From: a virus
DNA length: 64,000 nt
IMG/VR virus record: IMGVR_UViG_3300032242_000468
Coordinates: 1-64,000 of that record
Strand: one strand, 5' to 3'
Part shown: positions 7,091 through 53,520 of the stretch, piece by piece
Layout of the letters: the number at the start of each line of letters is the position of its first letter
How positions within the stretch are numbered: position 1 is the first letter of the stretch
The notes under the pieces: model-generated
Seen by the model: the letters and a program-made list of their open reading frames with translations, nothing else
Told to the model about the DNA's origin: nothing
Database searches by the model: none
Translations under genes and position numbers: made by a program

Positions 7091-7097
7091 TACTACT

Positions 7098-10527: not shown

Positions 10528-10530
10528 TTA

Positions 10531-10854: not shown

Positions 10855-10874
10855 CCTAACTCTCCTTGATGTAT

Positions 10875-11099: not shown

Positions 11100-11118
11100 A
11101 AAAATCTCCTATTTGTTT

Positions 11119-11126
11119 TATTTATA
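11119..11126 (-). promoter_or_regulatory. T4 late promoter, perfect TATAAATA
   Basis: The minus strand reads TATAAATA, with predicted +1 at 11113 and a 14-nt leader containing AGGAG before the ATG at 11099. It is a clear example of the leadered class. Confidence 0.75.
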
Positions 11127-11148
11127 TAGGTGTTTAATGATAAGAAAA

Positions 11149-11562
11149 TTATATGATAATTGTTGTAGAAGTGTTCCAAGGAACTGCTTGCGATCTTACT
11201 ACCGCCGGCATGTTTTTAAGTCGTTCTGCTAGTGCATCAACAACAACCGAAACTCCAATATGGCTTTGTGCCCATTCTAATCCCATTTCTTCTGTTATTT
11301 GATCATAGGGAACAAATGACTCCGGATCAAAAACTCCTGGATATGTTGTAGTTTCACCTGTGAGTCTATCTTTAACTATCACATCACCTAATTGAAATGG
11401 AAGTGTTCCGTTTGAACTAACTCGGTTTCCGTTACTGTCTTCTGCCATTAGTTTCCAATGAACATGAGACACAACATCAGTCCATGTTCCATGGTTGGTA
11501 GTATTGACTTGTGTAACACTAAGAGTATATGTGGCTGTAGTGGTTGTAAAAATGTATGGCAT
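11149..11562 (-). CDS. Small fibre-cluster protein, paralogue 3
   Basis: A 137-residue protein of unknown function and the longest of the three paralogues. It has a Thr-rich N-terminal strand (ATYTLSVTQVN), VVSHVHWKLMAEDSNG, and ESFVPYDQITEEMGLEWAQS, which aligns with the corresponding segments at 10531 and 10195. Its start codon overlaps the stop of the 2323-residue fibre gene (TAATG), implying translational coupling. A chaperone or accessory role for that fibre is an inference from this coupling only. Confidence 0.65.
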   Translation of the reverse strand: MPYIFTTTTATYTLSVTQVNTTNHGTWTDVVSHVHWKLMAEDSNGNRVSSNGTLPFQLGDVIVKDRLTGETTTYPGVFDPESFVPYDQITEEMGLEWAQSHIGVSVVVDALAERLKNMPAVVRSQAVPWNTSTTIII

Positions 11563-18575: not shown

Positions 18576-21500
18576 TCAGTTTGTAACCTCGCTTGTCTGC
18601 ACATTTGCAACAAAACGTAGGGTATTTGCTCCGTCACCTTTACCTTGAACAAACAAACCGCCAGTTGTCGAATCTGCAATAATTTGGCAATCCCAAGTAG
18701 GATTACTTGACCAAATTTTTGTCTTGTTAACTACCTTCATCACAGTAGTTGCGGCACCATTATAACGGCTAATCACTCCATTAAACTGCCAAGCACCTTC
18801 ATCTAGGCTAGTAGTCGATTTGGCTGATACCAAAATACTAAACGAGTATGTTGAATTATCAGGCATTACCAATTGATTGGTTGTTCCGGGAGTAGCATTA
18901 TCTGTGGTTAGATTTGTAAATGCAGATCCTGTAATCTGGCGTCTTAGTACATATATACCTGCTTGAGAATCACCTGCTGTTGCAAATGCACCATTGGCAA
19001 ATATTTTGGATCCAGTTATACCTCTTGTTGTAGCACCACCACCTACGGCTAGATTATTTCCGCCAATGTATACATCACCGGCAATACCTGCACCGCCACC
19101 AACTGTTAAGGCACCGTTAGTTGTTCCTGTGGAAACTGTGATTGCTTGTATGTGAGTGTTACCGCCAATATTGACATCTTTAGAAATACCTACACCGCCG
19201 GCTACTATTAGCGCACCCGACGCAGTATCTAAACTTTGTGTACCGCTCTTAGCATATAAATTACCCGACAAATCAATAGATACTGCAATTGTGCCAGTTG
19301 TTGGGGCACTTCTGCTGGTCATTGTAGCATTGGTTGAGAAGTTAATTCCACCAGATGAATAAACTGTGTTGTAACTTGCACCAGCAGTCCATAAACCTAT
19401 ACCTTGACCTAAGTTGTTAGTTGCAATTTGTAGTACTTGATTGCCACTTATACCTTCGTTGTAAATACCGCCTGTTGTAGGCAAATAAATTGTGGCACTT
19501 GATCCTGCAATAATTGCACTTGTTGCTGTTAAAGCGCCTGCGACAAATATATTTCCACCAACACCTACACCACCTGTAACTACCAATGCTCCAGTTGTCG
19601 AACTAACAGCCTGTGTTGCATTTTGTGTAACTAGTTTGCCAGCAAAATAACCGTCACTGCCTACACCTAAACCACCAACAACCTGTAGTGCACCACTAGT
19701 TGGAGATATAGCATTAGTTGCATTAAGAATTGTTATTAGTTGATGAGTAGAACTTCCTCTACTTGTGACAGATTCTAAAGTAGAAGTTCCCCAAATTGTA
19801 ATAGCACCAGTACTTGTACTAATAGCCGTATCAGTTCCAGCAATAAGATTAGATACATAACCACCACTACCACCACTACCACCACCGCCTGTAAGTACAC
19901 TTTGTCCATTAACAGTTAAACTACCGTTAACATTGACATCACCACCAACACCAATACCACCTAATACAATTAGATCACCCGTATTTGTGCTTGTGGAGGC
20001 TGTACCACCTATTAAGGTTAACCCGCCAAATTTTGCACGACCGAATGTTCCAGTGTTGGCAAAACTGGGGGTATATGTTTCTGTGCCACCTGGATAAACA
20101 TTAGTCTTATACACCAGTACTTGTGTAGCATTGTCCATACCTAAGAAGGCGTGGTTATCGTACAGAGTATTTGCTGTAGCGGTTGTATTATAATGTAAAA
20201 TTAAACCGCGATCAAATCCGTCATTTACTGTTAATGCAGTATTTTGTGCTCCGGCACCTAATTCAATTACAGGATCAACAATGTAAGTCTGTGTAGAATT
20301 TACAAATGTCTGTTGTCCAAATACTTGTAAATTTCCGTAGATAGCAGTATTGCCACCTACAACTAAACTCTTACTAATTCCAACACCACCGCTAACAATT
20401 AAAGTTGCGTATGTACTAGAAGTTGCATCTTGGCCATTGTTAAGAGTGATAATTCTATCACTGATTGCACCGCGACTTGTAACACTTTCTAGTGTGCTAT
20501 TATCCCAAATTGTGACAGCACCTGTAGATGTACTGACAACCGTATCTGTACCAGCAGTGATACTTAGAACACCAGTATTGTTGATACTAAATGTTGCTGT
20601 TGTACCTGTTGAACTAATAATTGTTACACTAGTTCCTGTTCCTGCTGTTGGCAATACTGTGGTAACAACACGTTGTCCCCTGTCGTATACGCCTTGACCT
20701 GAATATATAGAACCATTAACACCTAAACCACCAGCAATAGTTACTGCACCAGTTAATGGGCTAATTGATTGAACAATACTTGTAAATGTTGCAGTACCGT
20801 TTACAAGAAGTGTTCCTGTGTTTATGATACCGCCGGTTACAATTTGTGCCGAAGTCACTGTATTAGCAACATACAATGATCCACCAATACCAACACCACC
20901 GCCAACTGTTAAAGCACCTGAATTTGTTGAAGTTGAAACAGTTACTGACAAAAATCTAATATCGTCAGTAGTGCTATTTCCTCTGTCAGTTACATTCTGT
21001 AGTGTATCAATACTAGATATTTGAACTTGACCAACACCGGTTGGTGGATTAATTGAAATACCACTGCCGGTTGTAATCTTTGTAACTCCATAACTACCAA
21101 TTGAAGATGTAGTTAATACCTGTGCACCTTGTGTGAATATAGGTCCAGTAACATCTAATTCACCTGATGGCAACAATTTCATCAAGATAGTAGCCGTTGT
21201 ACTAGTTTGACTTTGTAACCATTCAAAAGATACAGAAGGAGCCGGATATAGATTATAAAAATCTATCTCGTTAGATCCGCCGCTGGCATTATTACTGAGT
21301 GCTAATCCGCCTAATGGATTTGCTGGTATTTCTGTTTGAGTGTTATAGTTAAAGACCGAGTATCCACCAAACACAGTCATACCATTGTTAATGGAAGCAC
21401 CACCATTAACATTTATGTTTCCACTAATACCAACACCGCCAGTTACAACTAGAGCACCGTTAGTTGATCCAGTTGAACTTGTAGGGTTAGTAAGTGTGAT

Positions 21501-27263: not shown

Positions 27264-27271
27264 TATTTATG
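27264..27271 (-). promoter_or_regulatory. Late promoter octamer of the LamG-like fibre gene
   Basis: The minus strand reads CATAAATA; predicted +1 is 27258, giving a ~38-nt leader with AGAGGAGAG before the ATG at 27220. It overlaps the stop of the upstream gene. Confidence 0.5.
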
Positions 27272-30200
27272 ACGATGTAATTGCTGTTCGTAACACTTGG
27301 ATAGCCATGTTTGTTGGGACATAGTTAGGTGTAAACACAATATTAATTAAACCACCGTTATAAACAGCATCAAAATTTCCTAGTTCGCCTGTGTTGTTAA
27401 CAATACCGTATTCGGATATGTAAGCGCCATTTGTTTGTGCGCTGCCATCATAAGCAATCATAATCTCTTCAACATGGAATCTATTTGGAACGTATCCTGT
27501 ATCAATAATCTGTACAATATATTTGGCAGTTCTAAAAGCACCTGCGTTAAATGTATCTATTGTAATTTGGCTATTAGAAGCAATACCTACTGTGCTTGTA
27601 GAAGCAATTTGGTTGTTTACAATCTGAACTGTAACACCTTTAACAGTAGCACCTGAAGTAATACTACCACCGGCACCAATACCACCTGTGACAACTAAAG
27701 CACCTGAATTAGTTGAACCGTTATTAACTGAGTTAGAACCAATTTTAACCTGACCATCATTGACCCATAAGGCCCATTGATTAGCCGCCGCCGCTCCGCC
27801 AACTATAGTAGGCGAATTTTCAATGAATAATGTAGCAATATCTCGCCAAGTTGGGTTCAATGTGCCTACTAGATTAGGTTTATTGATACTGTGTATTACT
27901 GCTGTACCGGCATTAATACCAACCGATGTTAAATCTGTATAAGTGCTAGTTGATAGTTGTAAGCCTGGACCATTTACAGTCCATTTGTTGGCCTGTACAT
28001 CGCCTACTCGTTTAACACTACCTGCTACATAGAGGCCGCCACCGACACCAACTCCACCCCAAACTTCTAATGCTCCAGATCCTGTTGTACTAGAAACAGT
28101 AGTAGTTGATAGAATGTGTGTATTGCCGCCGATCCATGTGTCTAAACCAATACCAACACCGCCGGCAACAACTAAATCACCAAATGTTGTTCCTGTTGAT
28201 TGAGAACCACTATTAACACTTGCTGTGTTAATATTAATTCTTGTGGCATTAATAGTTTGAGCAACACCTAAACCACCTGCAATAGTTACAGCACCAACAC
28301 TTCTTGAAGGACTATCTTGTGTACCAAGAACAACTAGATTATTGTCAACTTCTAAATTAGTACCAACTCGTGCACTTTGACCAATGTCTAATATACCACC
28401 AAGCCAGACATCTTGAGCAATGCCAACACCGCCCGCTACAGTAAATGCACCACCTGAACTTGTAAATGCGTTACCTGAGTTTATAAATGCTACTGGGCCG
28501 CCTACATTTAAGTTGCCGCCAATACCAACACCACCTACAACTGTTAATGCACCACTACCAGTATTGTTAGATGTTTGATTGCTCCATACATATGCAGTAC
28601 CTGTAGTAACAAAAGTACCGCCCATGTTTAAATTGCCACCTAAACCTAAGCCACCGTCAATAATAATAGCACCTGTAGTGGTGCTTGTTGACTGTGTTAA
28701 ATTAGTAAAGTGGAAAGTTAGTGTAAAAACACCACCAATTGTTCCGTTAATTGTTCCTGTAGTAAGAACTTGAGAATTACCAACATACGCGGCTTGTTCA
28801 GCATATAAGTATTTTGCACCAACACCACCATTAGGAACATAAACTGTGTTTCCTGTTGTAGTTGTTAGATTATAATTGTATCCTAAGAATGTTGTATCAG
28901 TACTGAATACGTTTGTCTTACCAGAACTAATTCCGCCTGGTACAATTAACGCACCTGTTCCTGGAACTGTTGCAGGTGTACTATCGTGTAGTATTAACGA
29001 TCCTGCTTCTAGAGTTGCCCAAGAACCTGTTGTGTACAATTGAGTAATATCTACAAATCCATTGGCATTAGGTAGAATATTATTCTTTAAGAAGAAATGT
29101 TGAGCAGTATGATCAAGACCAATAATTGCTCTGTAGTCTGTTAGTGTGCTGACATTAGGTTGATAGTGGATCATCAATCCTTTATCATAGATGTCAGGAG
29201 TTTGTAGCATTGAACCATCAACACCACCACCAATATCAATAACAGGATCAACAATATAGGTATTTGTACTATCAACAACAACTTGTTTACCAGTACCTAA
29301 TAACAATAAATCACCACGGATAACAGCGTTTCCGTTTACCGTTATATCTTTTCCGATACTAACACCACCAGCAACTACAACCGCATTAGTTGCTGTTGTA
29401 CCAGTAGAACTGATTGAGGAACCAATAATTAAGTTTTGTCCAATGCCAACACCGCCGGCAACAACCAATGGTGCTACCGCAGAAGATTGAGCAACTGATG
29501 CATCTGCTACAACTATGTCCTGTGCCCAAATAGTATTAGCAACGCCAAGACCGCCGTTGATAATTACTGAACCAGATTGTGTATTTGATGCATCTATCTG
29601 AGCATTAAAGTATGCTTGTCCACCAAAGTAGCCAGTTCCACTAACACCTAGACCACCGCCATTGGTAACTTGTAAACTATTTCCAGTGTAATTTGTTAAA
29701 TTAAATGTGCCGGATGTAAAGAATCCGTTCTGAGCATATAGATCTTGCCCAACACCTAAGCCGCCTGCCAGTGTAAGAGCACCAGTACTTGTACTTGTGG
29801 CATTAATTGTACTTAAGAATGTACCTGTTCCTAAACCTACAATACGTCCGCCGACATAGATGTTGCCAGAAATACCAGCACCACCGCCATTTCTTAATTG
29901 TAAAGCACCAGTGCTTGTACTAATTGCTTGAGTAGCAGTTAATAAAATTAATTCATTAGGAAATTGTTGTTGTCCGTTGTTAGCAGTGGCTCGTGTTAAG
30001 ATTTCACTACTATTGATATTATATGTACCGTATAAATTACCGCCGCCGTAACCAACAATTCCGTTATTGAAACCAAAACCGCCTTGTACTTGTAAGGCTT
30101 CGTTGGCAAATGTTGTTGTACTACCTCTTGTTTCTCCAATATATACTGTACCTGATGTAATATAAAGTGAGTAGGGATTAACAATTGATAGATTACTACT

Positions 30201-30551
30201 TGCTGTACTAGGAGCGCCGTTGATGTAAACGCTAGCCGCATTAGTTACTGTAACGTTTGTATTGGTTGCATCTAATAATGGTTGACCAAAATAATTAACA
30301 ATTTCCCAAGGAACTAGGCCAGTACTAGAAATATCAGTGTATGTATTGTCACTAAAACGTAAAGCCGCACCATTAGAAAATACATTATCGCTTATTGGTC
30401 CAACACGACCAATGTAACCTTGTACATTTAAGTTACCACCAATACCAGCGCCACCGGCAACTTGTAAAGCACCTGAATATGTATTAGACGAGACAGCGGT
30501 TCCTTCAACTGTCAGGCCATATTTTAATACGAAATCTTTATTCAGTGCCAT
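27267..30551 (-). CDS. Repeat-rich fibre/virion protein (GGVGIGG repeats)
   Basis: A 1094-residue structural protein with about 16 GGVGIGG-type repeats and a Tyr/Asn-rich first third. It carries one copy of the module with LLLLGTGKQVVVD, YIVDPVIDIGGG and DKGLMIHYQ, also found twice in the 1896-residue protein. The C-terminal ~100 residues (FRTAKYIVQIIDTG, FHVEEIMIAYDG, ISEYGIV) form a domain shared with the 600-residue protein next to it. No catalytic motif. The start has an AAGGAA Shine-Dalgarno. Probably a beta-structured shaft or adhesin subunit. Confidence 0.75.
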   Translation of the reverse strand: MALNKDFVLKYGLTVEGTAVSSNTYSGALQVAGGAGIGGNLNVQGYIGRVGPISDNVFSNGAALRFSDNTYTDISSTGLVPWEIVNYFGQPLLDATNTNVTVTNAASVYINGAPSTASSNLSIVNPYSLYITSGTVYIGETRGSTTTFANEALQVQGGFGFNNGIVGYGGGNLYGTYNINSSEILTRATANNGQQQFPNELILLTATQAISTSTGALQLRNGGGAGISGNIYVGGRIVGLGTGTFLSTINATSTSTGALTLAGGLGVGQDLYAQNGFFTSGTFNLTNYTGNSLQVTNGGGLGVSGTGYFGGQAYFNAQIDASNTQSGSVIINGGLGVANTIWAQDIVVADASVAQSSAVAPLVVAGGVGIGQNLIIGSSISSTGTTATNAVVVAGGVSIGKDITVNGNAVIRGDLLLLGTGKQVVVDSTNTYIVDPVIDIGGGVDGSMLQTPDIYDKGLMIHYQPNVSTLTDYRAIIGLDHTAQHFFLKNNILPNANGFVDITQLYTTGSWATLEAGSLILHDSTPATVPGTGALIVPGGISSGKTNVFSTDTTFLGYNYNLTTTTGNTVYVPNGGVGAKYLYAEQAAYVGNSQVLTTGTINGTIGGVFTLTFHFTNLTQSTSTTTGAIIIDGGLGLGGNLNMGGTFVTTGTAYVWSNQTSNNTGSGALTVVGGVGIGGNLNVGGPVAFINSGNAFTSSGGAFTVAGGVGIAQDVWLGGILDIGQSARVGTNLEVDNNLVVLGTQDSPSRSVGAVTIAGGLGVAQTINATRININTASVNSGSQSTGTTFGDLVVAGGVGIGLDTWIGGNTHILSTTTVSSTTGSGALEVWGGVGVGGGLYVAGSVKRVGDVQANKWTVNGPGLQLSTSTYTDLTSVGINAGTAVIHSINKPNLVGTLNPTWRDIATLFIENSPTIVGGAAAANQWALWVNDGQVKIGSNSVNNGSTNSGALVVTGGIGAGGSITSGATVKGVTVQIVNNQIASTSTVGIASNSQITIDTFNAGAFRTAKYIVQIIDTGYVPNRFHVEEIMIAYDGSAQTNGAYISEYGIVNNTGELGNFDAVYNGGLINIVFTPNYVPTNMAIQVLRTAITSS

Positions 30552-32378: not shown

Positions 32379-35300
32379 TTATGCTCCTCCGATCACTAAT
32401 ACGAACGGAGTCATCTCAGCATACAAGGATTTTTGGAATGTACGACCTGAAAGCACACCAGTTGCTTGACTGATAACCAGCGTTGGTCCAATACGGAAGT
32501 CACCGTTTTGGTCAGTTGATGTAAAGAATACCTTACCGTTATTCAATTGTATTGTTTCCTTAGATTGTACTGGGTCAGCCTTACCAACCTGAGGTAGTGC
32601 ACCATACTGTGTTCCAGCACCCACATATTCAAACAAATAGCCTGAAGCGGAAATGTAACTCTGTTGATAGAAATTAACTGTTGCGCCATCGACAAATAGT
32701 GTCGGATCTGTAACGTTCTGTTCAAGTGTAACAATATGATACTGTCCTTTTCTCGTATAATATCCCTCACCTGTATTTACAGATTTATAATTTCCCCCAT
32801 TTACAACATCAAAGATAACAGAGTCTATGATAGATCCCATGTCTCGATAGCATTTGTTCTTATCATAGTTTGCCTGACCAGTATAAGTCCAGTCAATATA
32901 ACCTGTAATCTCTGCCTTAATAAAATCTCTATTGACTTCTAAGATGTTGTAGGTATTAAGCACATTTGTGTTTGTACTTTCAGCATATGCTATAGGCATA
33001 GCCGCTGGAGCAACACTAGGACCGTTTACAATAATATTTGTTATTGTATCAATGTTTGCTTGAACTAGCGCAACTTCTGCACTTGTACCAACAGGCATAT
33101 CAGTAACTTGTTTAATCTTAATTTGATAAACATTATCTACTGGCTGACCTGTAATAATATTAGAAACAATTTCTCTTAGATAATTGTAAGCCGCAGTAGT
33201 CTGAGGTATTTCGTCAGGTATGGCTGTTGTATAACCAAAACCATAATAGTAAACACCTGCTTGAACACTTTGACGATTTCCTGTATGAGTTAAATCAAAT
33301 CCTACACAGTCAATTACATAACCTATGTCTCTCATACAGGTTGTATGATCAAAGTTCCAACCAGGATTATCGTTAGTAATTCTTGCTACAACTTCATTCT
33401 TAATAAAGTCTTTATTTGTTTCAAGAATGCTATAAGCATTGAGTGTATCTGCATCAGTTGTTGTAGCACTATTAGGCACAATAATGTCAGTAACACCTGC
33501 TGTTCCATTTTCTAAAATATTTAAGACAACATTCATATTACCAGCCAATGTGGTAGCCGCAGAAGCCATTCCCATGTATGGAGTTGTAATTTGTGTACCT
33601 GTTGAATAACGTGGACCGCTAGTATCAGACAGTATAATCTGTTGTGCCAGCGATCTCACATAACCAATAGCCGCTGTTGTAGTTGTCAACTCGCCTGGAA
33701 TAGTAGCAGAAGTGTCATTGTTTTGATTCCAATATTGTAGGCCAGCAAATGTTGACTGACTTGTGCCGCCAAACAACAAGTCTTGTGCAATAGCATCGAC
33801 TACCAGTCCTGTATCACGTTGGCATTTTGCTTGACTGTAACTGAACCCTGGATATGCACTACTGATGTACCCAGTCATCTCAGACTCTAGATAACTTCTA
33901 TTAAGTTCTAGTAACTGTACAGCATTTATCACATTGGTTGCTGTGCTTGCTGTAGTTCCAATGGCAGTTTTGTCAGGAGCCGCACTTGGTCCGTTGGCAA
34001 TGATATTAGTGATTACATCAAGATTTGACTGTGCTACTGCGGCTTCTACACTTGTTCCAATACTGCCGGTATTAAACACCTGTGGATGTATCAATTGATA
34101 ACCAGAATTTACAGGGATATTTTCAATTACTTTAGGTACAATACTTCTTAGATAAGCGTAGGCCGCTAGTGTCTGAGTAGATTCTCCTGGAATAGCAGTG
34201 GATGTACTATTGTATCCATAGTAGTAAGAACCACTTTGGACTGCCTGTCTGTTTCCGCCATACAATATATCGACACAAACACTATCAACCATATAGCCTA
34301 CATCTCGAGCACATGTATCTCTGTTGTAAGTAAATGTAGAAGTAGTTTGACTAATGTAAGCCACAACTTCTGCTTGAATAAAAGTACGGTTAGAATGAAT
34401 TAAATTAGCCGCTTTGACCACATTGACGTTGGTAGAAGTTGTCACTCCTAATGGAGATTTTACGGTAACAATGTCAGGTCCGTTGTTAATAATTTCTGTT
34501 GCTAGATCAATTTTACTTTGTGCTAGGGTAACTTCAGCCGCAGTTCCTGTAGAAACACTAATAGTTTGAGTATATGTATTTTGATAAGTTACAGGCATTG
34601 CTTGACCTTGTACAATGTACGGTAACATTGTTTTAATATAGTCATAGGCAATAGTTGTTTTAACTTGTTCTCCAGGAATAGCACTTGAAGTATCGGAGAA
34701 TGTGTAGTAATATACACCGGATTGAACTGCCTGTCTGTTTCCGCCATATAACAAGTCAATAGAAACACTATCAACCATAAATCCTACATCTCGGTAGCAT
34801 TTGGCTTGATCATAAACAAAACCTGTGCTAGATGTAATATGATTTACATAGGCAACAGCCTCAGTTTGAATGTACTGTTTATTAGCCTGGATAATACCGT
34901 ACGCATTTTTAGTAGTAACATTGGTACTAGATGTTATTCCGTTAGGAACAATTAAGTCTGTGACACCTGCTGTTCCACTGCTCAAGATATTGGTAATAAT
35001 ATTAAAATCAGCCAACACTGCTGATGCATCAGTAGCGGCACCGTGTGGCACGTTTGTAATTTGACTTACGGTACTCTGATATCTTGTACCAGTAGATATA
35101 CCTTGAATAACCAACTGCATCAAAGAACTTACATAGTTGATTGCCTGTGTAGTTGTAGTAATTTCACTAGCAATAGATCCAGTGTAATCACCTTGATTCC
35201 AATATTGTAATCCAGCAAATGTCATCTGACTTGATGTATTAAACAACATGTCTTGCACAATAGCATCAACAATCAATCCTGTATCACGAGAACATTTATT

Positions 35301-38300
35301 TTGATCAAACACATACGACGGATTAGATGCATAATCAACATAGGCTACTGCTTCTTGTTGTAGATATGCTCTGTTGGCCTGCAAAATATTAAACGCATAG
35401 ATGTTACTTACAGTTGTACTGGCTGTTACACTATTAGGCACAATCATATCAGTTACACTGTTAGTACCTGTTGCTAATATATCAAGAATAACATCAAAAT
35501 CTGCGGCTACTTGGGCCACTGTTGCTGTAATACCTGTTGGTAAAAATAATGACTGTGTTAAAGTGTTGCCTGTACTAGTAGTAACTGGTGTGCTTTGAAC
35601 TACATTCTGTATTACCTCACTCAAATATCTGAATGCGTTTGTGGTAGTAGTAATTTCGTTGGCAATTGTGTTAACATACCCATCTTGATTCCAATATTGT
35701 AATCCGCTGAATACGCTCTGAGTAGTACCTTCATGCAACACATCAAGTGCAATACTGTCAACAATTAATCCTGTGTCACGTGCACATTTAGTTTTGTCAT
35801 ATTTGAACTTAGTGTTAAATCTATTATCAATGTAGGCAATTACCTCAGATTGAATAAACGATCTATTGGCATTTAGTAATTTTGCCGCATTCTGCGTCGA
35901 TGTTGTATCGCTTGGATCTAACGGAATTGGTGTACCATCTTGAGCCACGCTAGGACCAACATCAATAATGTTAGTAATCAGGTCAACATGATTTCTCACA
36001 AAGTCAACATCTGTCTGTTGCCCAACAAGATAAACATAATTTACATAATTTACAATTTCGTTTTGGATAAAGTCTCTGTTAGCCTCAAGAATCTTGGCAG
36101 CGTTCAAAACAGTAGCAGTACTTGTAGCAGTTAATCCAATTGAAGTTGCTGTGTTAGCCACAGTTGGTCCGTTGTTAATAATATTCACAATTAAATCAAC
36201 CATGCTCTGTACTTGGGTGGATTCAAATATTGTTGCTGATGTCAGCGTAGTAACCTGAGTAGCAGTGTTATTTGGCGAAGGAGTAACTGCTTGATTTTGT
36301 ACAATTTGAGGAACAATATCTCTTAGGCGTTCATATGCCGCAATGGTTTGAGCACTTTGATAAGGAATAGCAGTTGATGTTGTATATGAATAATAGTAAA
36401 CACCGCTCTGAATTGCTTGTCTGTTACCACCATATAAGATATCAAAACTTACACTATCAACCATATAGCCTACATCTCTGTAACACTTGTCTGTGTCAAA
36501 TGTAAATCCGCCGGTTGCGATACTGCTAACATAAGAAAGAGTCTGCTGTTGTAAGTAAGTCTTGTTAGCCTGTAGAATATTGTATGCTCTTGTAGCGTCA
36601 GTTGAAACAGCAGTTAATCCGTTTGGAACAATTAAATCTGTAACACCAGAAGTTCCGCTGTTTAATATATTAAGAATATATTGGAAATCATTCTTGACAG
36701 CATATAGTTGAACATATGTTGCAGTAGTTCCTGTAGTAACTTGTGTTGCAGTAGTAACAAAACGTCGAACAGTACCTGTACTTTTAACAACAACTTGTTG
36801 AGCAAGATCACTTAGATACTGTATTGCTTTTGTTGTTGTAGTTAATTCTCCCGGAATAGTTCCAACAGTAGATGTTGATTGATTCCAGTATTGGATACCG
36901 GCAAAGTTACTTTGTGTGTAGCCTTTGACAGGAAATTTTAAGTCAATAGCAAAACTATCAACTAATAATCCTGTGTCTCTAAAACATTTATTAGAGTCGT
37001 ATGTATAACTTAAACTTGTAACTTGAGGTACCAGAGTCTGTTGAGGATTAGTAATAGTCTGACCTAGTATAATTGGTTGTACAAGATCTTTAATATAGTT
37101 ATAGGCCGCAGTAGTCTGTGGAATTTCATTAGGAATTACTGTAGCAGTTGTATAATAGTAATAATATACACCTGATTGAATTGCTTGACGATTACCGCCG
37201 TAAAGTGTATCAAAACTAACACTATCTAACATAAATCCTACATCACGGAAGCATTTATTTTGATCGTAAGTAAACCCTGTATACTTACTATCAATATAGG
37301 CAATTACTTCATTTTGAATGAACTCTCTGTTAGCCAATAATAAACTAAATGCGTTTGCAACATTTGGATTTGAATTAGGTGTTAGTCCAATTGGTTTTGG
37401 AGGACTTGCAACTACAGGTCCTTTGTTAATAATATTTGTAATTGTAGAAACATATCTACTTGCTAATACAACTTCGTTGGCAGATGCTGGTAACAGATAT
37501 GTAACCTGAGTAGCAGTATTACCGGGACTCTTTTGAACAGTATTGCCTAACAATATTGTAGAAACAACCTGTCCTAGATGATTGTAAGCATCATTAACTT
37601 GGGGCAATTCGTATGTTATAACAGAAGATGTGTTTATATAACTGTAATAGTACACACCGCTCTGTACAGCCTGTCTGTTACCGCCGTGTATCAAGTCAAA
37701 ACTTACACTGTCAATCATATAACCTAAGTCACGAGCACATGTATCTCTATTATAAACAAATGTTGAACTAGAAATATAATTGATATAGGCCAAAGTTTCT
37801 TCAATCATAAACTCACGATTAGCCTGTAGAATAGCATAGGCATTGTTAGTGCTTGTGGTATTTGTTAATCGACCATTAGGCACAATAGTGTCAGTCACTC
37901 CAGCAGTACCATTCTGTAAGATGTTGATAATTACGCCAAAATCTGCGCCTACCGCAGATGCATCAAGTGATGTTGCTTTGGTTAAACTGATATTTTGTGT
38001 TGTAGTATTTTGATAACGTGTACCTGTATTATTAACAACAACCTGTTGAGCCAACGAACTTAGATAAATTACTGCTTGAGTAGTTGTGGCTAATTCTCCA
38101 GGAATAGTTCCGTTAGTTGATGTTGATTGATTCCAGTATTGAATACCTGCAAATGTTGACTGACTATTTCCAACACTTGGGTACATCATGTCAAATGCAA
38201 TTGCATCTACAATTAAACCAGTATCTCTAAAACAGTTATCTTGATTATAAGAGAAGTTGGAAGTAGAATTTACATAAGCAACAATTTCACGTTGTAAGAA

Positions 38301-41300
38301 TTCTCTATTCTGTTGTATCTTATTGTATGCTTGAACAATATCATTATTTGTACTTGATGTTATTGCGTTAGGAACAATAGCATCAGTGACTCCAGCAATA
38401 CCATTTTGTAAAATATTAATGATGTACTGGAAATCTCCTTTAACAGCATTTACAGTTGCAGTCGATACCTTGTATGTGCCTGTAATTTGGAATGGCTGTG
38501 CATTATAATAATTATTAACATAGGCAATAGTTTCTGCCGCAATAAAATCTCTGTTAGCATGAACAATAGCCGCCGCGTTTAAAATACTTGCGGTTGTGGT
38601 TATTGTCATTCCTATTGGAGACTTGACAGTAGAACTTGTCTGTCCGTTAGTAATAATATTAGTAATGGTTGTTATAGATTTCTGTAAACTCTTAGCATCA
38701 TTAAGTGTACCAGGTGTTAAATTGGTAACTTGTGCTACATCTTGTTGGTATGTTGATGTTGTAACTCCTGTCACAATCCAAGGTAACAAATTACTGATAT
38801 GGTCGTAAGCACCTAATGTTTGAACGCTTTCATTTGGAATTACTGTATTGGTTGTTGTAAAGTTATAATAGTAAACACCACTTTGAACTGCTTGTTTGTT
38901 TCCACCATATAGTGTGTCAAATGCAATACTATCAACAACAAATCCAATATCTCTTGAACAACTTGTTGTACTGTAAGTAAATCCTGTACCTGAACTAATA
39001 AAGTTTGTATAAGCAACACCTTCTGCTTGAATATACGCTCTGTTTGCTCTAATAATATTGTAAGCGTTTACAGCATCTGTTGCTGTGCTTGCTGTAATAC
39101 CATTTGGTACAATAAGATCAGTAACTCCTGCTGTCCCACTTGTTAGTATGTTTAAGAACACATCAAAGTCTGCTTTGACTGTAGCAGAAGTAGAAGCCGC
39201 AGGTAATGACACATTTTGAGTAGTACCAATTTGGTAACGTGTCCCAGTGCTGTTAATTACTAGTTGTTGAACAAGCCTACTTACATACTTAAATGTATTA
39301 GTAGTTGTAGTTTCTTCTCCAGGAATAATTGAACTTGTACTTGTGCTCTGAGCCCAGTATTGCAATCCAGCAAATACTGATTGACTTGATGTACTAAACA
39401 ATAAATCTTGCACAATAGAGTCTACAATTAAACCAGTATCGCGTTTACATTTCACAGAGTCATAAGCAAAGCCGGCAAAATATCTCGAGCCTGTAGTTAC
39501 ATTGGTTAAAACTTCGCCTACTAGTCCTTGTAAGTGAATAACAGCATTAGTTGTAGTTGTTAATTCGCTGCCAATAGCACCAACATAGCCCTGTTGATTC
39601 CAATATTGAACACCTGCAAATGTTGATTGACTAGATGTATTGAATAATAGATCTTGTGCTAGTGCATCAACAATTAAACCAGTGTCGCGTTTACATTTAA
39701 CATCGTCATAGACAAATTGACTTGGCCAAATATGGTCAACATACGCAACTGTTTCTGCTTGTAGGAAGTTTTTATTTTCTTCTAACAAACGTCTTGCACT
39801 GTTTACACCTTCTGATATATTAACATACTGTGAAGGACGAATAATAGTAGGACCAGTTCCTGCTCCGTTCTGAACAATACCAGCAATGATATTAAACTTA
39901 TCAGCAACACTTGTAGCCGCATCGGCACCGTGTTGGAAGTTGGTATCAATAATTTGAGAAACAGAAGTTTGATAAGTTGTTGTTATCAGTTGGTTAGCAA
40001 TAATTTGTACTGCCAACTCTCCAGCATGTGCAATTGCCTGGCTAGTTGTTGTAATTTCTCCAGTTGGCAAAACTGCCGCTAATGTTGATATTGGCGAACT
40101 TATTGATGTATCTACCACACTAGATAGCACGTTGTAGTAAGCATTACCGCAGAAATATAAGTTTAGATAGTTGTTGTTGGTTATGTCCCCGCCACCATTT
40201 AGAATAGGTCTATCTAAAGTAATACTTCTGTAATTTACATCAGAAACTCTTGTTCCTGTAGAAATATACAATTGTCCAGTAACCGGGCCTTCATTTCCGT
40301 AAATATCTTTAATATGAATTGTATGCCCAATAGCAATATCAGTTATATCAATATCGTTGATGGTATAACTGCCTGTACTCACCGTACTTGTATTAGAACT
40401 AGCCACTAGATATCCGGGATATCCTTCTGAATTAATATACGGAACACGATTACCGTTGTAATCTAAATAGGTAGCAGGAGGAACAATTTCCATAACTTGA
40501 CCAATGTGTGGTCTGTTTAAGTTATCAGGAACAAATACTTCTACCTGCTGAGCATTTGGCCAATAACCAATAGGATAGTATTCACTGTTAGGTATATTAG
40601 TAGGGAATGGTGGATTCCAAACAATACCAGCAAAACTCAATTGCCCAATACCTTTAGCAACCAAACATTGATTTCCAAAGTTGGCGTTAGAGTTAGTAAT
40701 AGAAGCAATACCTCCATTCTCAACCAACACAGAAGTAGAACAGAAGATTGTAAACACCGACACCAACTGTGCATATCCGTTATTGATGATGTGAATACCA
40801 ATACCGCCTTGATTCAATTGTGTGAACGCATCAAAAACAAATGATTGAATAGGTGATCTTAATGAAGGAGCATTGCCGTCAACAAGTGCACCACCACCTG
40901 ATCCGTTAGGATCTAGTCTACGGTCAGCATTAGTACTTGTTGACCAATACTCGGGTATTTGGTCGTCTAAGAAAGGATAAACGCTAGTACTACCAAAATA
41001 TACTGTGGCATTATCGCTGGGCGCAATTGTAGGATTGTTCAGTGTAACCGCATAGCATCCTGTTGATATCTCGGTAACCGCAGTAACTTGACTGGCAGTA
41101 TTAATAGCATCGGGGCTTAAGCCGCTTGGTACAATTAGAGCATAGATATCATCTACTACCGCAGGAGCGGTTGTAGGCCCACCATTAATAATTGTTGTAA
41201 TAATACCAAAATCAGTTGTAAGTCTTCCTGCAGTCACTCCACCATTTGGCTTAGTTGTGTCTATTACCTGACTTACAGAAGTTTGGTAAGTAGCGGTGAG

Positions 41301-44300
41301 CGGAGTATTAGAAACAACTTTTGCGGCAATTGAGGCTAGATAATCAATAGCACCAACTGTTTCAACTTGTTGACCTGTAATCAAACTATTTGTACCTGAC
41401 CAATAACTTAACCCAGCAATAATACTACGTTTATTACCGCCATATCTAGCATCGCCGGATACTGCATCAACAATTAATCCTACATCTCTAAAACATAATG
41501 GTTGGTTATAAACAAAGTAATTGTTACCAATATATGCAATAACTTCTGCCTGTATAAATGCTCTATTGGCTTCTAAAATTGCCGCCGCATTTTTAACGTA
41601 TGAATTTGTACTTGGATTTAGCGGTAGTGGTGATAAAGGTTGAGAAACACTAGGGCCATTGTTAATAATATTTGTAATGGTAGACACAATTAATTGTGCC
41701 TGAGTTCCTTGCGTAGTTTGACCACCAACTAGATTAGTTACTTGTAAAACATTAGTCTGTTGTGGCGATATTGTTTGACCAGTAATAATAGAAGGCAATA
41801 TGCTACTGATATAGTTGTAGGCCGCAGTTACCTGCGGAATTTCATTAGGTACTGCTGTTGAAGTAGTATAACCATAATAGGCTACACCGCTTTGTATTGC
41901 TTGGCGGTTACCTCCATATAGTAAGTCAATAGATACACTATCAATCATGTATCCTAAATCTCTATAGCAAGTTTCTTTGCTATAATCAAACAATGGAGGA
42001 TATTTGCTATTAATGTAGGCAATGACTTCAGATTGGATAAACGATCTATTAGATTCTAATAATTTAGCCGCTTGATAAGAGTATGTATCAGTGCTTGACG
42101 TTAGACTAATAGGAGTTTTATCTGCCGCAACACTTGGACCATTTTGTATAATATTAGTAATAGTGTTAACAATCGAAAGTACATCAGCAGATTCTATATA
42201 TGTTGCTGTGTATGCAGAGAACACTTGCGTGACAGTATTTTGATAAGGAGTAACTGCTACATTTTGAATAATACTTTGCGATAGGCTTGCTAGGTATTGG
42301 TATGCATCAAGTGTTGCTGGCATTTCATTTGCCAATACAGTTGAAGTATTATATCCATAGTAATAAACACCTGATTGCACCGCTTGTTTATTACCACCGT
42401 GTAATAAATCAAAGCAAATACTATCTAATACATAACCTACATCTCGGAAACAAGTTTCTTTATTATAAGTGAAGTGTGTTGAACTACTTACAGCATCAAT
42501 ATAGGCAATTGCTTCTCGTTGAATGTAGTCTTTGTTAATTTGAATTAAATTATAAGCACGAACAGTTCCTGTCGCTATGCTTTTATCAATACCGTTAGGT
42601 ACAATAATATCAGTAACGCCTGTAGTACCGCTGGTTAAAATATTAATAAATGTATTAAAATCAGTTTTAATTATTCCTGATTCTACTGCGGTAGCGGCGG
42701 TATATGTAGCAGTGACTTGACTAGATGTAGTTTGATAACGAGTACCTGTTGTAATATTTCTAACAATTAGTTGTGTTAGACTGCTTACATATCTAAACGC
42801 ATTAGTAGTTGTATTAAATTCTCCAGGAAGAATTGCATTTGTGGTAGTTGACTGGCTCCAATATTGTAGTCCAGCAAATGTACTTTGGCTATTTCCAGCA
42901 GTAGGATATAATAAATCTAATGCAAGAGCATCAACAATTAGCCCAGTATCACGTCCACAATTTTGTTGATTGTAATAAAATCCAGAACGTAGTGTTTCAA
43001 TATATGCTAGAGTTTCATTACGAATAAATTCTTTATTAATTTGTAGAGCATTATAAGCATTAACAACATTGGTTGCTGAATTAGCAACTATGCCATTAGG
43101 TACAATAGTGTCAGTTACTCCTACAGTTCCTCTATTAAGAATGTTAACAATAACATTAAAATCATTACTAACTTTTTTTGCTTCTACACTTGTACCTAAC
43201 AATGTGGCTGTTATCTGCGTGACTGTACTTTGATATCTTGTTCCTGTTGTACCTGTAATAACTTGTGCGGCTAATTTACCTGCAAATTGAATTGCTTTTG
43301 TAGTTGTGTTTATTTCTCCAGGAATAGTAGCAGAAGTATCTCCGCCTTGATTCCAGTATTGTAATCCTGCAAAATTTGATTGACTATATCCGCCAAATAA
43401 TAGGTCTTGAGTAATTGCATCAACAATTAGACCAGTGTCACGTTTGCAAGTATCTTGATTATAATAAAAACCGTTATATGTAGTGTTTACATAGGCAACA
43501 ACTTCATTCTGTAAAAAGTTTCTGTTTGCTCGTAACAGTAATTGCGCATTGCGATATCCTTCGTTAGCCGCATCATTGATGCTCATACCAACTGCAATTG
43601 TACCGGTAGATATATAAACTGTAATTGTACTTTGTCCTGCTACCCATGTGCTTGTACCGGCAGCATCTGGAATTTGAACAGTCTGGTTAGGAATAAACAT
43701 ACTACCGTCATACAACCAAGGTCCGGACTGATTGGTACAGTTTTGAATATATGGTGAGTGGTAAACATCAATTGGATTTCCTAAGTTTGGAGGAAATGCA
43801 GTGGCATAAGCACCGGTAGTATACGTACCTGCACCACCCGGAGCATAACGTTCTACACTACCTCTACGTTGGTTAATCATGGCCATCTGTGCAATATACA
43901 CACCAGAATTAACATGGAACAAATCTAGATCTTTGTTCAGAGGTTCAACGAATGTTGTTCTTAAGTCATTACCAATAACAGAAGTATTTGGTAGTAGCAC
44001 TAAAGGATTTTCTTCAAAGTAATGACCAGCCGCTACACGAATAGTAGTACCTTCTTGATAGTAAGGACTACGAATGGCACCGGCAATAGTACGGCAAGCA
44101 CGGCTAGCATCTTGAGCACGACCGTCATTAGTATCGTCTCCGTCTACTGTTACGTATAAAGTATTTCCAACAAAAGGAGCAGTACCTAACGGATCTTCAC
44201 CTAATACTCTAATCTTTCCATTGATCAGTGTATCGCCTGTAACATTTAATTTTCCAGAAACTTTAACTGTGGTACTAGGCTTAAAATTAATTTCACTTTT

Positions 44301-44555
44301 GCCTAATCCGTCTATAGTGATGTCAGTGCCAGAACCTGCGGGAGTTATTTTTTGATTGTTAAAATTTAATTTACCTAATTCACTGCTAAACTGAGTAACA
44401 CCTTTAATGTCTTGTTTTAATGTATATCCGTCGTCTGTAGATGGTGCTTGACCTAAGTTGGGCATTGCTTGGTCAAGGCCAAGCCACTTCCAACGGTCTG
44501 GAGTCATTTCGGCAAATGACTTTAATTTTTTTCTTTGACTTACTAGACGACTCAT
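32379..44555 (-). CDS. Giant fibre/adhesin with ~20 Cys-Arg-Asp repeats
   Basis: A 4058-residue protein from a 12.2-kb gene, the longest in the window. From ~130, TLYVTVDGDDTNDGRAQD opens a beta-helix-like head (ending near residue 310 with GPWLYDGSMFIPNQTVQIP). Five repeats of ~163 residues follow, each with a core like Y-x4-C-x-RD-x-G-x-x-(I/V)-D-(A/S). Next comes a central ~300-residue domain opening with GSGGGALVDGNAPS (~1218) and containing GYAQLVSVFTIFCST. About 15 more repeats follow, then a ~120-residue C-terminal domain (FFTSTDQNGDFRIGPTLVIS). Head, centre and tail are paralogous to the 2197-residue protein. No enzyme motif. Likely a very long fibre (inference). A weak Shine-Dalgarno (TGAG) precedes the ATG. 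Confidence 0.82.
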   Translation of the reverse strand: MSRLVSQRKKLKSFAEMTPDRWKWLGLDQAMPNLGQAPSTDDGYTLKQDIKGVTQFSSELGKLNFNNQKITPAGSGTDITIDGLGKSEINFKPSTTVKVSGKLNVTGDTLINGKIRVLGEDPLGTAPFVGNTLYVTVDGDDTNDGRAQDASRACRTIAGAIRSPYYQEGTTIRVAAGHYFEENPLVLLPNTSVIGNDLRTTFVEPLNKDLDLFHVNSGVYIAQMAMINQRRGSVERYAPGGAGTYTTGAYATAFPPNLGNPIDVYHSPYIQNCTNQSGPWLYDGSMFIPNQTVQIPDAAGTSTWVAGQSTITVYISTGTIAVGMSINDAANEGYRNAQLLLRANRNFLQNEVVAYVNTTYNGFYYNQDTCKRDTGLIVDAITQDLLFGGYSQSNFAGLQYWNQGGDTSATIPGEINTTTKAIQFAGKLAAQVITGTTGTRYQSTVTQITATLLGTSVEAKKVSNDFNVIVNILNRGTVGVTDTIVPNGIVANSATNVVNAYNALQINKEFIRNETLAYIETLRSGFYYNQQNCGRDTGLIVDALALDLLYPTAGNSQSTFAGLQYWSQSTTTNAILPGEFNTTTNAFRYVSSLTQLIVRNITTGTRYQTTSSQVTATYTAATAVESGIIKTDFNTFINILTSGTTGVTDIIVPNGIDKSIATGTVRAYNLIQINKDYIQREAIAYIDAVSSSTHFTYNKETCFRDVGYVLDSICFDLLHGGNKQAVQSGVYYYGYNTSTVLANEMPATLDAYQYLASLSQSIIQNVAVTPYQNTVTQVFSAYTATYIESADVLSIVNTITNIIQNGPSVAADKTPISLTSSTDTYSYQAAKLLESNRSFIQSEVIAYINSKYPPLFDYSKETCYRDLGYMIDSVSIDLLYGGNRQAIQSGVAYYGYTTSTAVPNEIPQVTAAYNYISSILPSIITGQTISPQQTNVLQVTNLVGGQTTQGTQAQLIVSTITNIINNGPSVSQPLSPLPLNPSTNSYVKNAAAILEANRAFIQAEVIAYIGNNYFVYNQPLCFRDVGLIVDAVSGDARYGGNKRSIIAGLSYWSGTNSLITGQQVETVGAIDYLASIAAKVVSNTPLTATYQTSVSQVIDTTKPNGGVTAGRLTTDFGIITTIINGGPTTAPAVVDDIYALIVPSGLSPDAINTASQVTAVTEISTGCYAVTLNNPTIAPSDNATVYFGSTSVYPFLDDQIPEYWSTSTNADRRLDPNGSGGGALVDGNAPSLRSPIQSFVFDAFTQLNQGGIGIHIINNGYAQLVSVFTIFCSTSVLVENGGIASITNSNANFGNQCLVAKGIGQLSFAGIVWNPPFPTNIPNSEYYPIGYWPNAQQVEVFVPDNLNRPHIGQVMEIVPPATYLDYNGNRVPYINSEGYPGYLVASSNTSTVSTGSYTINDIDITDIAIGHTIHIKDIYGNEGPVTGQLYISTGTRVSDVNYRSITLDRPILNGGGDITNNNYLNLYFCGNAYYNVLSSVVDTSISSPISTLAAVLPTGEITTTSQAIAHAGELAVQIIANQLITTTYQTSVSQIIDTNFQHGADAATSVADKFNIIAGIVQNGAGTGPTIIRPSQYVNISEGVNSARRLLEENKNFLQAETVAYVDHIWPSQFVYDDVKCKRDTGLIVDALAQDLLFNTSSQSTFAGVQYWNQQGYVGAIGSELTTTTNAVIHLQGLVGEVLTNVTTGSRYFAGFAYDSVKCKRDTGLIVDSIVQDLLFSTSSQSVFAGLQYWAQSTSTSSIIPGEETTTTNTFKYVSRLVQQLVINSTGTRYQIGTTQNVSLPAASTSATVKADFDVFLNILTSGTAGVTDLIVPNGITASTATDAVNAYNIIRANRAYIQAEGVAYTNFISSGTGFTYSTTSCSRDIGFVVDSIAFDTLYGGNKQAVQSGVYYYNFTTTNTVIPNESVQTLGAYDHISNLLPWIVTGVTTSTYQQDVAQVTNLTPGTLNDAKSLQKSITTITNIITNGQTSSTVKSPIGMTITTTASILNAAAIVHANRDFIAAETIAYVNNYYNAQPFQITGTYKVSTATVNAVKGDFQYIINILQNGIAGVTDAIVPNAITSSTNNDIVQAYNKIQQNREFLQREIVAYVNSTSNFSYNQDNCFRDTGLIVDAIAFDMMYPSVGNSQSTFAGIQYWNQSTSTNGTIPGELATTTQAVIYLSSLAQQVVVNNTGTRYQNTTTQNISLTKATSLDASAVGADFGVIINILQNGTAGVTDTIVPNGRLTNTTSTNNAYAILQANREFMIEETLAYINYISSSTFVYNRDTCARDLGYMIDSVSFDLIHGGNRQAVQSGVYYYSYINTSSVITYELPQVNDAYNHLGQVVSTILLGNTVQKSPGNTATQVTYLLPASANEVVLASRYVSTITNIINKGPVVASPPKPIGLTPNSNPNVANAFSLLLANREFIQNEVIAYIDSKYTGFTYDQNKCFRDVGFMLDSVSFDTLYGGNRQAIQSGVYYYYYTTATVIPNEIPQTTAAYNYIKDLVQPIILGQTITNPQQTLVPQVTSLSYTYDSNKCFRDTGLLVDSFAIDLKFPVKGYTQSNFAGIQYWNQSTSTVGTIPGELTTTTKAIQYLSDLAQQVVVKSTGTVRRFVTTATQVTTGTTATYVQLYAVKNDFQYILNILNSGTSGVTDLIVPNGLTAVSTDATRAYNILQANKTYLQQQTLSYVSSIATGGFTFDTDKCYRDVGYMVDSVSFDILYGGNRQAIQSGVYYYSYTTSTAIPYQSAQTIAAYERLRDIVPQIVQNQAVTPSPNNTATQVTTLTSATIFESTQVQSMVDLIVNIINNGPTVANTATSIGLTATSTATVLNAAKILEANRDFIQNEIVNYVNYVYLVGQQTDVDFVRNHVDLITNIIDVGPSVAQDGTPIPLDPSDTTSTQNAAKLLNANRSFIQSEVIAYIDNRFNTKFKYDKTKCARDTGLIVDSIALDVLHEGTTQSVFSGLQYWNQDGYVNTIANEITTTTNAFRYLSEVIQNVVQSTPVTTSTGNTLTQSLFLPTGITATVAQVAADFDVILDILATGTNSVTDMIVPNSVTASTTVSNIYAFNILQANRAYLQQEAVAYVDYASNPSYVFDQNKCSRDTGLIVDAIVQDMLFNTSSQMTFAGLQYWNQGDYTGSIASEITTTTQAINYVSSLMQLVIQGISTGTRYQSTVSQITNVPHGAATDASAVLADFNIITNILSSGTAGVTDLIVPNGITSSTNVTTKNAYGIIQANKQYIQTEAVAYVNHITSSTGFVYDQAKCYRDVGFMVDSVSIDLLYGGNRQAVQSGVYYYTFSDTSSAIPGEQVKTTIAYDYIKTMLPYIVQGQAMPVTYQNTYTQTISVSTGTAAEVTLAQSKIDLATEIINNGPDIVTVKSPLGVTTSTNVNVVKAANLIHSNRTFIQAEVVAYISQTTSTFTYNRDTCARDVGYMVDSVCVDILYGGNRQAVQSGSYYYGYNSTSTAIPGESTQTLAAYAYLRSIVPKVIENIPVNSGYQLIHPQVFNTGSIGTSVEAAVAQSNLDVITNIIANGPSAAPDKTAIGTTASTATNVINAVQLLELNRSYLESEMTGYISSAYPGFSYSQAKCQRDTGLVVDAIAQDLLFGGTSQSTFAGLQYWNQNNDTSATIPGELTTTTAAIGYVRSLAQQIILSDTSGPRYSTGTQITTPYMGMASAATTLAGNMNVVLNILENGTAGVTDIIVPNSATTTDADTLNAYSILETNKDFIKNEVVARITNDNPGWNFDHTTCMRDIGYVIDCVGFDLTHTGNRQSVQAGVYYYGFGYTTAIPDEIPQTTAAYNYLREIVSNIITGQPVDNVYQIKIKQVTDMPVGTSAEVALVQANIDTITNIIVNGPSVAPAAMPIAYAESTNTNVLNTYNILEVNRDFIKAEITGYIDWTYTGQANYDKNKCYRDMGSIIDSVIFDVVNGGNYKSVNTGEGYYTRKGQYHIVTLEQNVTDPTLFVDGATVNFYQQSYISASGYLFEYVGAGTQYGALPQVGKADPVQSKETIQLNNGKVFFTSTDQNGDFRIGPTLVISQATGVLSGRTFQKSLYAEMTPFVLVIGGA
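32780..39760 (-). repeat. Cys-Arg-Asp repeat array, downstream of the central domain (about 15 units)
   Basis: Cores lie near 39688, 39448, 38953, 38228, 37739, 37246, 36980, 36480, 35785, 35289, 34796, 34310, 33818, 33336 and 32850 on the minus strand. Typical spacing is 485-495 bp. Two intervals of ~240-266 bp and two of ~695-725 bp indicate half-unit losses and gains. Confidence 0.85.
41400..43520 (-). repeat. Cys-Arg-Asp repeat array, upstream of the central domain (5 units)
   Basis: Cores lie near 43441, 42952, 42446, 41962 and 41490, spaced 472-506 bp. The same number of units precedes the central domain in the 2197-residue paralogue. Confidence 0.85.
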
Positions 44556-44570: not shown

Positions 44571-44954
44571 TTAAGCGTTGGCTGTTTCTAGAATACTTAG
44601 GATTAGTTTGCAAGTACCAGTTGAATCGGCATATGCTCTAATGCTGTCTTGACTTTCTAAAATCATTTTACCTGTGATTAAAGAAGCAGAATCATTAGGC
44701 GGTATGTCATACCCTGCAACTAATTCTGTTTGTACATTTGGATCCTGTGCATTGTTACCTTGAGCATCTGGTAAGACTCTAAATCTTCTATAATGGCTAA
44801 AAGTTACTGTATGATCAACTGTATCAGTATTTGCAACCTGTGCCATAAGAATAATAGAAGTTACACCGATCGGAGCAACATACACACTAGCCGTTGTATT
44901 TGTATCTAAAATTTTTGTCTTTGTCTTAAACGTGTTTAATGGAATTAATGCCAT
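44571..44954 (-). CDS. Small virion-type beta protein
   Basis: A 127-residue protein of unknown function. The pattern TTASVYVAPIGVTSIILMAQ followed by VDHTVTFSHYRRF and a C-terminal strand (ILSILETANA) suggests a single beta-sandwich, and resembles the 103-residue protein at 53209 (TTLPGPVYQS, ITAIIFCNTSATTDATV). Small proteins of this kind are common near fibre genes of marine myoviruses. It sits between the two giant paralogous fibre genes and has a strong AAGGAG Shine-Dalgarno. A minor virion protein or fibre adaptor is possible. Confidence 0.65.
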   Translation of the reverse strand: MALIPLNTFKTKTKILDTNTTASVYVAPIGVTSIILMAQVANTDTVDHTVTFSHYRRFRVLPDAQGNNAQDPNVQTELVAGYDIPPNDSASLITGKMILESQDSIRAYADSTGTCKLILSILETANA

Positions 44955-53208: not shown

Positions 53209-53520
53209 TTATAATGATATATAACTTAATGTTGCAGTAATAACTGAATTTTGAGATGCCTGTGCTTGAACACTATCACCATTTGCAAGAATAAATTTTT
53301 CTGTATCGATACTAAATGTTTCACCTCTAGGAATTGAAATTGCTTTACAAATCTTGTTATTATCTCCTCTAGCATACCCGGAAGGCACCATCCAGATATC
53401 CACAGTAGCATCTGTGGTTGCACTGGTGTTACAGAATATAATTGCTGTAATAGCATTATCACCTATTGATTGATAAACAGGTCCTGGTAAAGTTGTTAAT
53501 TGTGTATTAGTAATTGCCAT
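53209..53520 (-). CDS. Small virion-type beta protein
   Basis: A 103-residue protein of unknown function. It has the pattern of small beta-sandwich virion proteins: a threonine-rich first strand (TQLTTLPGPVYQS), ITAIIFCNTSATTDATVDIW, then SIPRGETFSIDTEKFILANG and a final strand. It resembles the 127-residue protein at 44571. An AAGGA Shine-Dalgarno precedes the ATG. Confidence 0.68.
   Translation of the reverse strand: MAITNTQLTTLPGPVYQSIGDNAITAIIFCNTSATTDATVDIWMVPSGYARGDNNKICKAISIPRGETFSIDTEKFILANGDSVQAQASQNSVITATLSYISL

Follow-up and report, generated by a model that had tools for sequence, protein, structure and literature searches.

Repeat proteins are usually pictured as strings of interchangeable beads, and the window analysed here, the first 64,000 nucleotides of the 119-kb virus record IMGVR_UViG_3300032242_000468, raises the question of whether one giant gene at 32379-44555 fits this picture. 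The original prediction had described it as encoding a 4058-residue fibre protein with about 20 tandem Cys-Arg-Asp repeats at ~490-bp spacing and of two alternating flavours. The reading frame is indeed uninterrupted, with an ATG start and 4058 aa, on the minus strand, which the prediction had missed; the plus strand of this interval holds many stops. The repeat count also held: the C-x-RD-x-G motif occurs 20 times, and a unit HMM detected 19 full or nearly full units (E-values ~1e-32 to 1e-44, far beyond chance), a truncated last unit, two remnants and a weak half-unit, the latter with E 0.43 in the window and E 0.0004-0.026 in several relatives. Units measure ~162 aa and usually follow one another at 158-169 residues, but the spacing is not uniform, since two units are joined to their predecessors (82 and 89 aa spacing), gaps of 242 and 233 aa are due to the two remnants, and a 600-aa gap contains a separate beta-rich domain that divides the array of units. 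The two flavours, A and B, are real, but they do not alternate, and a third, neutral class (o) stands beside them. Along the protein the order is AABBo / AAB(t)ABBAB(t)AABBABo (slash, division between arrays I and II; t, remnant), an order that is balanced when A and B are taken as brackets (Table 1). A and B units almost always keep the Cys of C-x-RD, and the unit has no second conserved Cys.

Table 1. Features of the giant gene and of its two paralogues in the window; numbers in brackets name the units.
Feature	Coordinates	Strand	Remarks
Whole gene, 4058 aa	32379..44555	-	Trunk N, array I, trunk B, beta-rich stretch, array II, C-terminal domain
Trunk half N, residues 132-290	43686..44162	-	Beta-helix-like by sequence character; HMM from A1
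Array I unit 1, A (331)	43077..43565	-	Outer partner of 823; 59/59 Phe-Tyr
Array I unit 2, A (494)	42576..43076	-	Inner partner of 661; Tyr-His
Array I unit 3, B (661)	42090..42575	-	Partner of 494
Array I unit 4, B (823)	41607..42089	-	Partner of 331
Array I unit 5, neutral o (984, 'X')	41118..41606	-	Last before trunk half B
Trunk half B, residues 1218-1302	40650..40904	-	HMM
Conserved beta-rich stretch after trunk half B, residues 1303-1497	40065..40649	-	Relatives' sequence alignment
Half-unit, residues 1498-1580	39816..40064	-	Matches only C-terminal end of unit core
Array II unit, A (1581)	39576..39815	-	Fused to next unit; outer partner of 2396; Phe-Tyr
Array II unit, A (1661)	39084..39575	-	Partner of 1825; Phe-Tyr
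Array II unit, B (1825)	38589..39083	-	Partner of 1661
Remnant unit t (1990)	38349..38588	-	Lacks Cys-Arg-Asp core
Array II unit, A (2070)	37860..38348	-	Partner of 2233; Tyr-His
Array II unit, B (2233)	37371..37859	-	Partner of 2070
Array II unit, B (2396)	37098..37370	-	Fused to next unit; outer partner of 1581
Array II unit, A (2487)	36606..37097	-	Partner of 2651; Phe-Tyr
Array II unit, B (2651)	36114..36605	-	Partner of 2487
Remnant unit t (2815)	35907..36113	-	
Array II unit, A (2884)	35415..35906	-	Outer partner of 3376 by bracket order; code off (His-Tyr)
Array II unit, A (3048)	34923..35414	-	Partner of 3212; modelled stretch starts here; Phe-Tyr
Array II unit, B (3212)	34431..34922	-	Partner of 3048
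Array II unit, B (3376)	33942..34430	-	Outer partner of 2884
Array II unit, A (3539)	33456..33941	-	Partner of 3701 by bracket order; code off (Phe-His)
Array II unit, B (3701)	32973..33455	-	Partner of 3539
Last unit, neutral o (3862, 'L')	32688..32972	-	Truncated
Conserved C-terminal domain, residues 3957-4058	32382..32687	-	Common to cyanophage tail proteins
Paralogue, 2197 aa	44971..51564	-	Same plan, order ooABo / ABo; length near-constant in most relatives
Paralogue, 980 aa	24278..27220	-	Trunk half N, C-terminal motif and LamG, no unit; PHROG baseplate wedge subunit

The 4058-aa protein is a member of a known but unnamed family of T4-like phage tail and structural proteins. Its PHROG matches (4527, E 1e-190; 5342, E 2e-157; 701, E 7e-82) are tail-fibre and virion-structural families, 310 cyanophage or marine phage records matched it by tblastn at low identity, and scans of IMG/VR found more than 500 stretches encoding relatives for each of two queries. 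Homologous T4-like cyanophage proteins measure 3338, 4075 and 6619 aa, so that the gene is not unusually large within its family, contrary to what had been stated, whereas the length variability suspected from the sequence was borne out by orthologous genes of 2446 to 4064 aa among the relatives. The relatives share a common plan of trunk half N, array I, trunk half B, beta-rich stretch, array II and C-terminal domain, and typical members carry 0-14 units in array I and 1-15 in array II, between constant boundaries.

In the distant relative L014, N and B are separated by 9 residues with zero units between them, and the 980-aa paralogue carries zero units. The units are therefore, as read from sequence, insertions in a trunk that the unit-free paralogue has in common, where they form nested A-B pairs, and not the single repeat-built appendage originally envisaged. 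The trunk itself appears to be beta-helix-like. Elsewhere the distance from N to B follows ~110 + 162.5n, with n = 1, 2, 4, 5, 6, 8, 10 or 14 (56 distinct proteins). The flanking neutral units X and L have one-to-one counterparts between relatives (identity, 52-59% for X in L013 and L012, and 72-78% for L), and the inner units mostly have none. The paralogue next to the giant gene is 2174-2208 aa long in most relatives, and 1370 and 1708 aa in two. Separately, L014 (ORF 1127-13687) shows repeats of ~55-65 aa between its unit blocks, at residues 1076-1362, 1787-2083 and 2739-3027, which resemble the second half of the unit alone.

We then scored the order of the units. The window's units served as seeds for an A and a B profile, which were then extended automatically. 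The log-odds of 2311 units fell into three clearly distinct groups, with A above +40, B below -40 and the neutral class within ~30 of zero. Balance was scored per array by letting A open and B close a bracket; L014, L015 and L016, which are distant and have units without a clear type, were excluded. The rule had been noticed on loci L009-L087, where 44 of the 45 arrays I and all 24 arrays II were balanced, and loci fetched afterwards, with near-duplicates removed, served for validation. In the validation set, 50/54 arrays I were balanced, against a mean of 17.2 and a maximum of 31 in 2000 shuffles of the labels, and 8/10 arrays II, against a shuffle mean of 3.5 and maximum of 8. Overall, 126 of 133 distinct arrays were balanced at a threshold of 35 (120-126 at thresholds of 25 to 45), as were 23 of the 27 distinct orders that include two or more A units. 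One of the seven unbalanced arrays was examined, and this AAABB of L060 is a scoring artefact rather than a true imbalance, since fusion of the next unit to a neutral one led to the latter being scored as A. The observed arrays rule out both strict alternation and a plain AABB period, and the deepest nesting reaches three levels (AAABBB in L013, AABAABABBB in L059).

The copy number of the units changes with a preference for twos. Along a tree built from the trunk domains of 57 proteins, n shifts at least 21 times, with its parity altered only 3 times, and m, the corresponding number for array II, is odd in all complete proteins save the outgroup L014; the copy number therefore mostly shifts by two. 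AAB and ABB arrays are nearly absent, although unequal crossing-over in AABB would readily yield them, which suggests that selection acts on the balance of the array. The free order and single-unit steps of a plain tandem repeat were not found in these arrays, in view of their balance and of the 3 parity changes in at least 21. It is thus very improbable that the protein is an ordinary tandem-repeat fibre with two bead flavours, ordered by random unequal crossing-over: the fused units and remnants do show that deletions have occurred within the array, but the balance lies far above that of the shuffles, parity was kept in 18/21 changes, and the residue coupling described below is partner-specific.

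To ask which residues link the two types, coupling was calculated as background-corrected mutual information over 248 distinct adjacent A-B pairs, in the numbering of the unit profile. The top column pairs were A59-B59, A64-B67, A135-B65 and A62-B135, with z up to 8.3. A135-B65 and A62-B135 are near mirror images and A59-B59 lies on the diagonal, as expected of a near-two-fold interface. When A was mispaired with another B of the same protein, the couplings were lost and the top value fell from 0.34 to 0.20; 40 within-protein shuffles gave a maximum of 0.18, against 0.337 for the real pairs. The residues at 64/67 were Asp/Glu-Lys in 43 pairs and Gln-Gln in 175, with 0 mixed among these, and those at 59/59 were Phe-Tyr in 78 and Tyr-His in 112, with 6 mixed; the pattern persisted after reduction at 60% identity. 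In the window, 7/9 pairs follow the 59/59 code, the exceptions being His-Tyr (2884/3376) and Phe-His (3539/3701).

Furthermore, the same code identifies partners that are not neighbours. A log-odds score trained on 141 pairs from nesting-free proteins was applied to 51 non-adjacent outer pairs, and the mean score was 2.25 for the bracket partner, against -1.48 for the remaining B units in that protein (p 2e-11). In 36 AABB blocks, the nested pairing won 30 times and the crossing one 4 times, with 2 ties (p 6e-7); both p-values overstate the case, because related sequences were treated as independent. The coupled columns had been picked on adjacent pairs, including the inner pairs of nested proteins, so that the choice of columns is not fully independent, while the outer pairs were never used for it. 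Taking the residues at 64/67 by themselves, the outer pairs comprised 6 Asp/Glu-Lys, 39 Gln-Gln and 0 mixed combinations, and the crossing alternative gave 0 Asp/Glu-Lys and 10 mixed. Two AABB blocks of the window were scored, of which one clearly supports nesting and the other slightly supports crossing. Non-adjacent bracket partners thus coevolve as adjacent ones do, in keeping with nested paired modules, and the statistical case for pairing, drawn from related sequences, is strong. Balance, partner coevolution and nesting together suggest that A...B is one two-half module that accepts inserted modules.

The same balance and matching could instead reflect ancestry rather than a rule of folding, if A-B pairs were copied and inserted together without the partners touching. 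The few recurring pair classes (Phe-Tyr, Tyr-His, Asp/Glu-Lys) could be co-inherited, and the copy number shifts mostly in twos. Such a history, however, predicts coupling over most columns, whereas it was found in a few near-symmetric ones (z up to 8.3) and persists once the set is reduced to 60% identity; AAB or ABB, the products expected of crossing-over between like units, are also nearly absent. We therefore regard shared ancestry alone as an unlikely explanation, and a module formed by the two partners as the preferred one.

The neutral units behave differently. Their pairing (o1-X, X-L and o1-L) was sought with the A-B coupled columns and was not found, so that the bracket grammar does not span every unit. 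L045, L049, L061 and L065 carry, in array II or at the end of array I, runs of neutral units (ooo, ooooo) without A or B, and the unit numbers of these runs in array II are likewise odd.

An AlphaFold2 model of four units (residues 3048-3702) was all-helical, with some six main helices in each unit, and had pLDDT 78 and pTM 0.39. Because of these two values, the predicted fold of the unit appears credible and the arrangement of the units does not. By alignment, column 59 falls at the end of helix 3, columns 62-67 at the start of helix 4 and column 135 in helix 6. The original prediction could not name the domain, and neither could we: the 4058-aa protein gave no Pfam domain and no PDB match by sequence, and the four-unit model no PDB match by fold. 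Phage_antitermQ and the YchF C-terminal domain appeared in Pfam below the cut-off and inconsistently, and were rejected. Among predicted viral structures, the significant named matches were cyanophage tail or structural proteins and uncultured Caudovirales proteins. AlphaFold of the whole short relative L036 gave a poor model, on which no structural claim is built.

We consider it probable that the product of the gene is a giant tail/baseplate protein from an aquatic T4-like jumbo phage and that its trunk carries arrays of nested, paired A-B modules. In the proposed explanation, a beta-helix-like trunk with its conserved C-terminal domain would offer two insertion sites, each filled by an array of all-helical ~162-aa units of two types that complement each other. 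One folded module would consist of an A unit and the B matched to it by brackets, as a near-two-fold-symmetric pair with contacts via the corner of helices 3 and 4 (positions 59-67) and via helix 6 (position 135). Because further complete modules could enter at the A/B junction, modules would lie side by side (ABAB) or nested (AABB, AAABBB, AABABB), and the result would be branched side arms that change in size mostly by whole A-B pairs. These arms probably add reach or bulk to the tail fibre or baseplate, perhaps for host contact. Tail fibres are often trimers and coevolution is blind to whether a contact lies within or between chains, so that A and B might pair between the chains of an oligomeric fibre; balance and nesting, however, fit pairing in a single chain and are not needed by identical chains in register, and we find such an arrangement quite unlikely. 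On pairing within one chain, we lean towards the wider claim of a domain family whose folding requires A-B pairing, nested and branched, with a complementary residue code, which would be an undescribed architecture.

The location of the protein was judged from homologues and gene context. The homologue S-SZBM1_208 (6619 aa; CDS 149248-169107 of NC_070839) contains at least six units; 71 of its peptides were detected in purified virions of phage S-SZBM1, where it was named baseplate wedge initiator, and this phage was reported to be without long tail fibres (PMC9146016). The neighbours of the giant gene are portal, capsid, sheath, sheath-stabiliser, baseplate wedge-like and collagen/S74 fibre genes. 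With this context, the virion detection makes a tail or baseplate component of the virion likely, and the fibre or appendage of the original prediction agrees with it as far as this class of protein goes, as do the tail-fibre and virion-structural PHROG families. S-CREM2 gp85, a 4971-aa 'long tail fiber' detected by MS, was rejected as virion evidence, since it gave zero matches to the trunk or unit HMMs.

The side arms may plausibly contact the host. No receptor-binding or self-cleaving tip was found in the 4058-aa protein among Pfam domains, and a better candidate for a tip-bearing tail fibre is the protein encoded at 11562-18533, with 2323 aa, collagen repeats and a C-terminal Peptidase_S74 chaperone, which is likely a classical tail fibre. 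The giant protein might instead be a structural part of the baseplate or tail and not an adhesin, with the arms as bulk or scaffold, a possibility that we take seriously but rate somewhat below even. It accords with the match of the unit-free paralogue to baseplate wedge PHROGs, and with the name given to the MS-detected S-SZBM1_208 in a phage reported as having no long tail fibres; most other relatives, however, carry tail-fibre names, though by similarity, and the LamG domain of the paralogue hints at glycan binding in the family.

The homologous units of the T4-like cyanophage giants (S-PM2 p091, ACG-2014e gp28, S-ShM2 093 and S-SZBM1 gp68/S-SZBM1_208; PHROG 4527, 5342, 701) occur in proteins of 3300-6600 aa, and S-PM2 p091 has the same order of N, units, B and C-terminal domain, but their identity to the window protein is only ~22-27%. 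Clear A and B types were seen in the aquatic jumbo-phage group only, and the A/B order was read in that group. The baseplate wedge PHROGs 13163, 1469, 19601 and 32294, together with the 980-aa paralogue, are alike in trunk half N and the C-terminal motif, with LamG instead of units. The BACON repeats of crAss-like phages are repeated phage domains too, but of an unrelated kind, and no bracket pairing is described in the abstract of that report (PMC6949934).

Limited text searches, which covered few subscription journals, found no description of nested repeat grammars. Nested domain insertion and RNA stems offer an analogy, as one unit lies within another and partners can be traced by covariation; here, by contrast with nested domain insertion, one family inserts into itself repeatedly, up to three levels, and the branching varies between relatives. 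We know of no other protein with a bracket-paired, nested organisation of units, and to our knowledge such balanced, nested and coevolving pairing is undescribed. The order of the units is bound like matched brackets, partners can be read from sequence across eight intervening units, and two or three positions resemble an interaction code. If the contact is confirmed, the arrays would represent a natural system of branched protein assembly, would explain how a tail/baseplate protein changes mostly in steps of ~325 residues with its fold kept, and would provide a large unnamed domain family, present in cyanophages and in hundreds of contigs from aquatic phages, with a structure that can be tested. 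If A-B pairing is obligatory, the domain tree of the protein would be legible from its sequence, like an RNA stem.

As for the phage itself, its major capsid protein shares ~68-70% identity with the counterparts in jumbo T4-like phages, e.g. Sinorhizobium phage Phosso and Escherichia phage 121Q, and contigs related to the record are up to 354 kb long. The tail sheath protein (1849-5232; PHROG 10581) is large for a sheath at 1127 aa. Two small proteins, at 44571-44954 (127 aa) and 53209-53520 (103 aa), both belong to the unknown PHROG 1276, and one of them sits immediately upstream of the giant gene; the 129-aa neighbour of S-CREM2 gp85 did not match the 127-aa protein. The large neighbours at 18576-24266 and 27267-30551 are rich in a short 'TGALVVTGGVGIGGNL'-type repeat (PHROG 697 structural protein).
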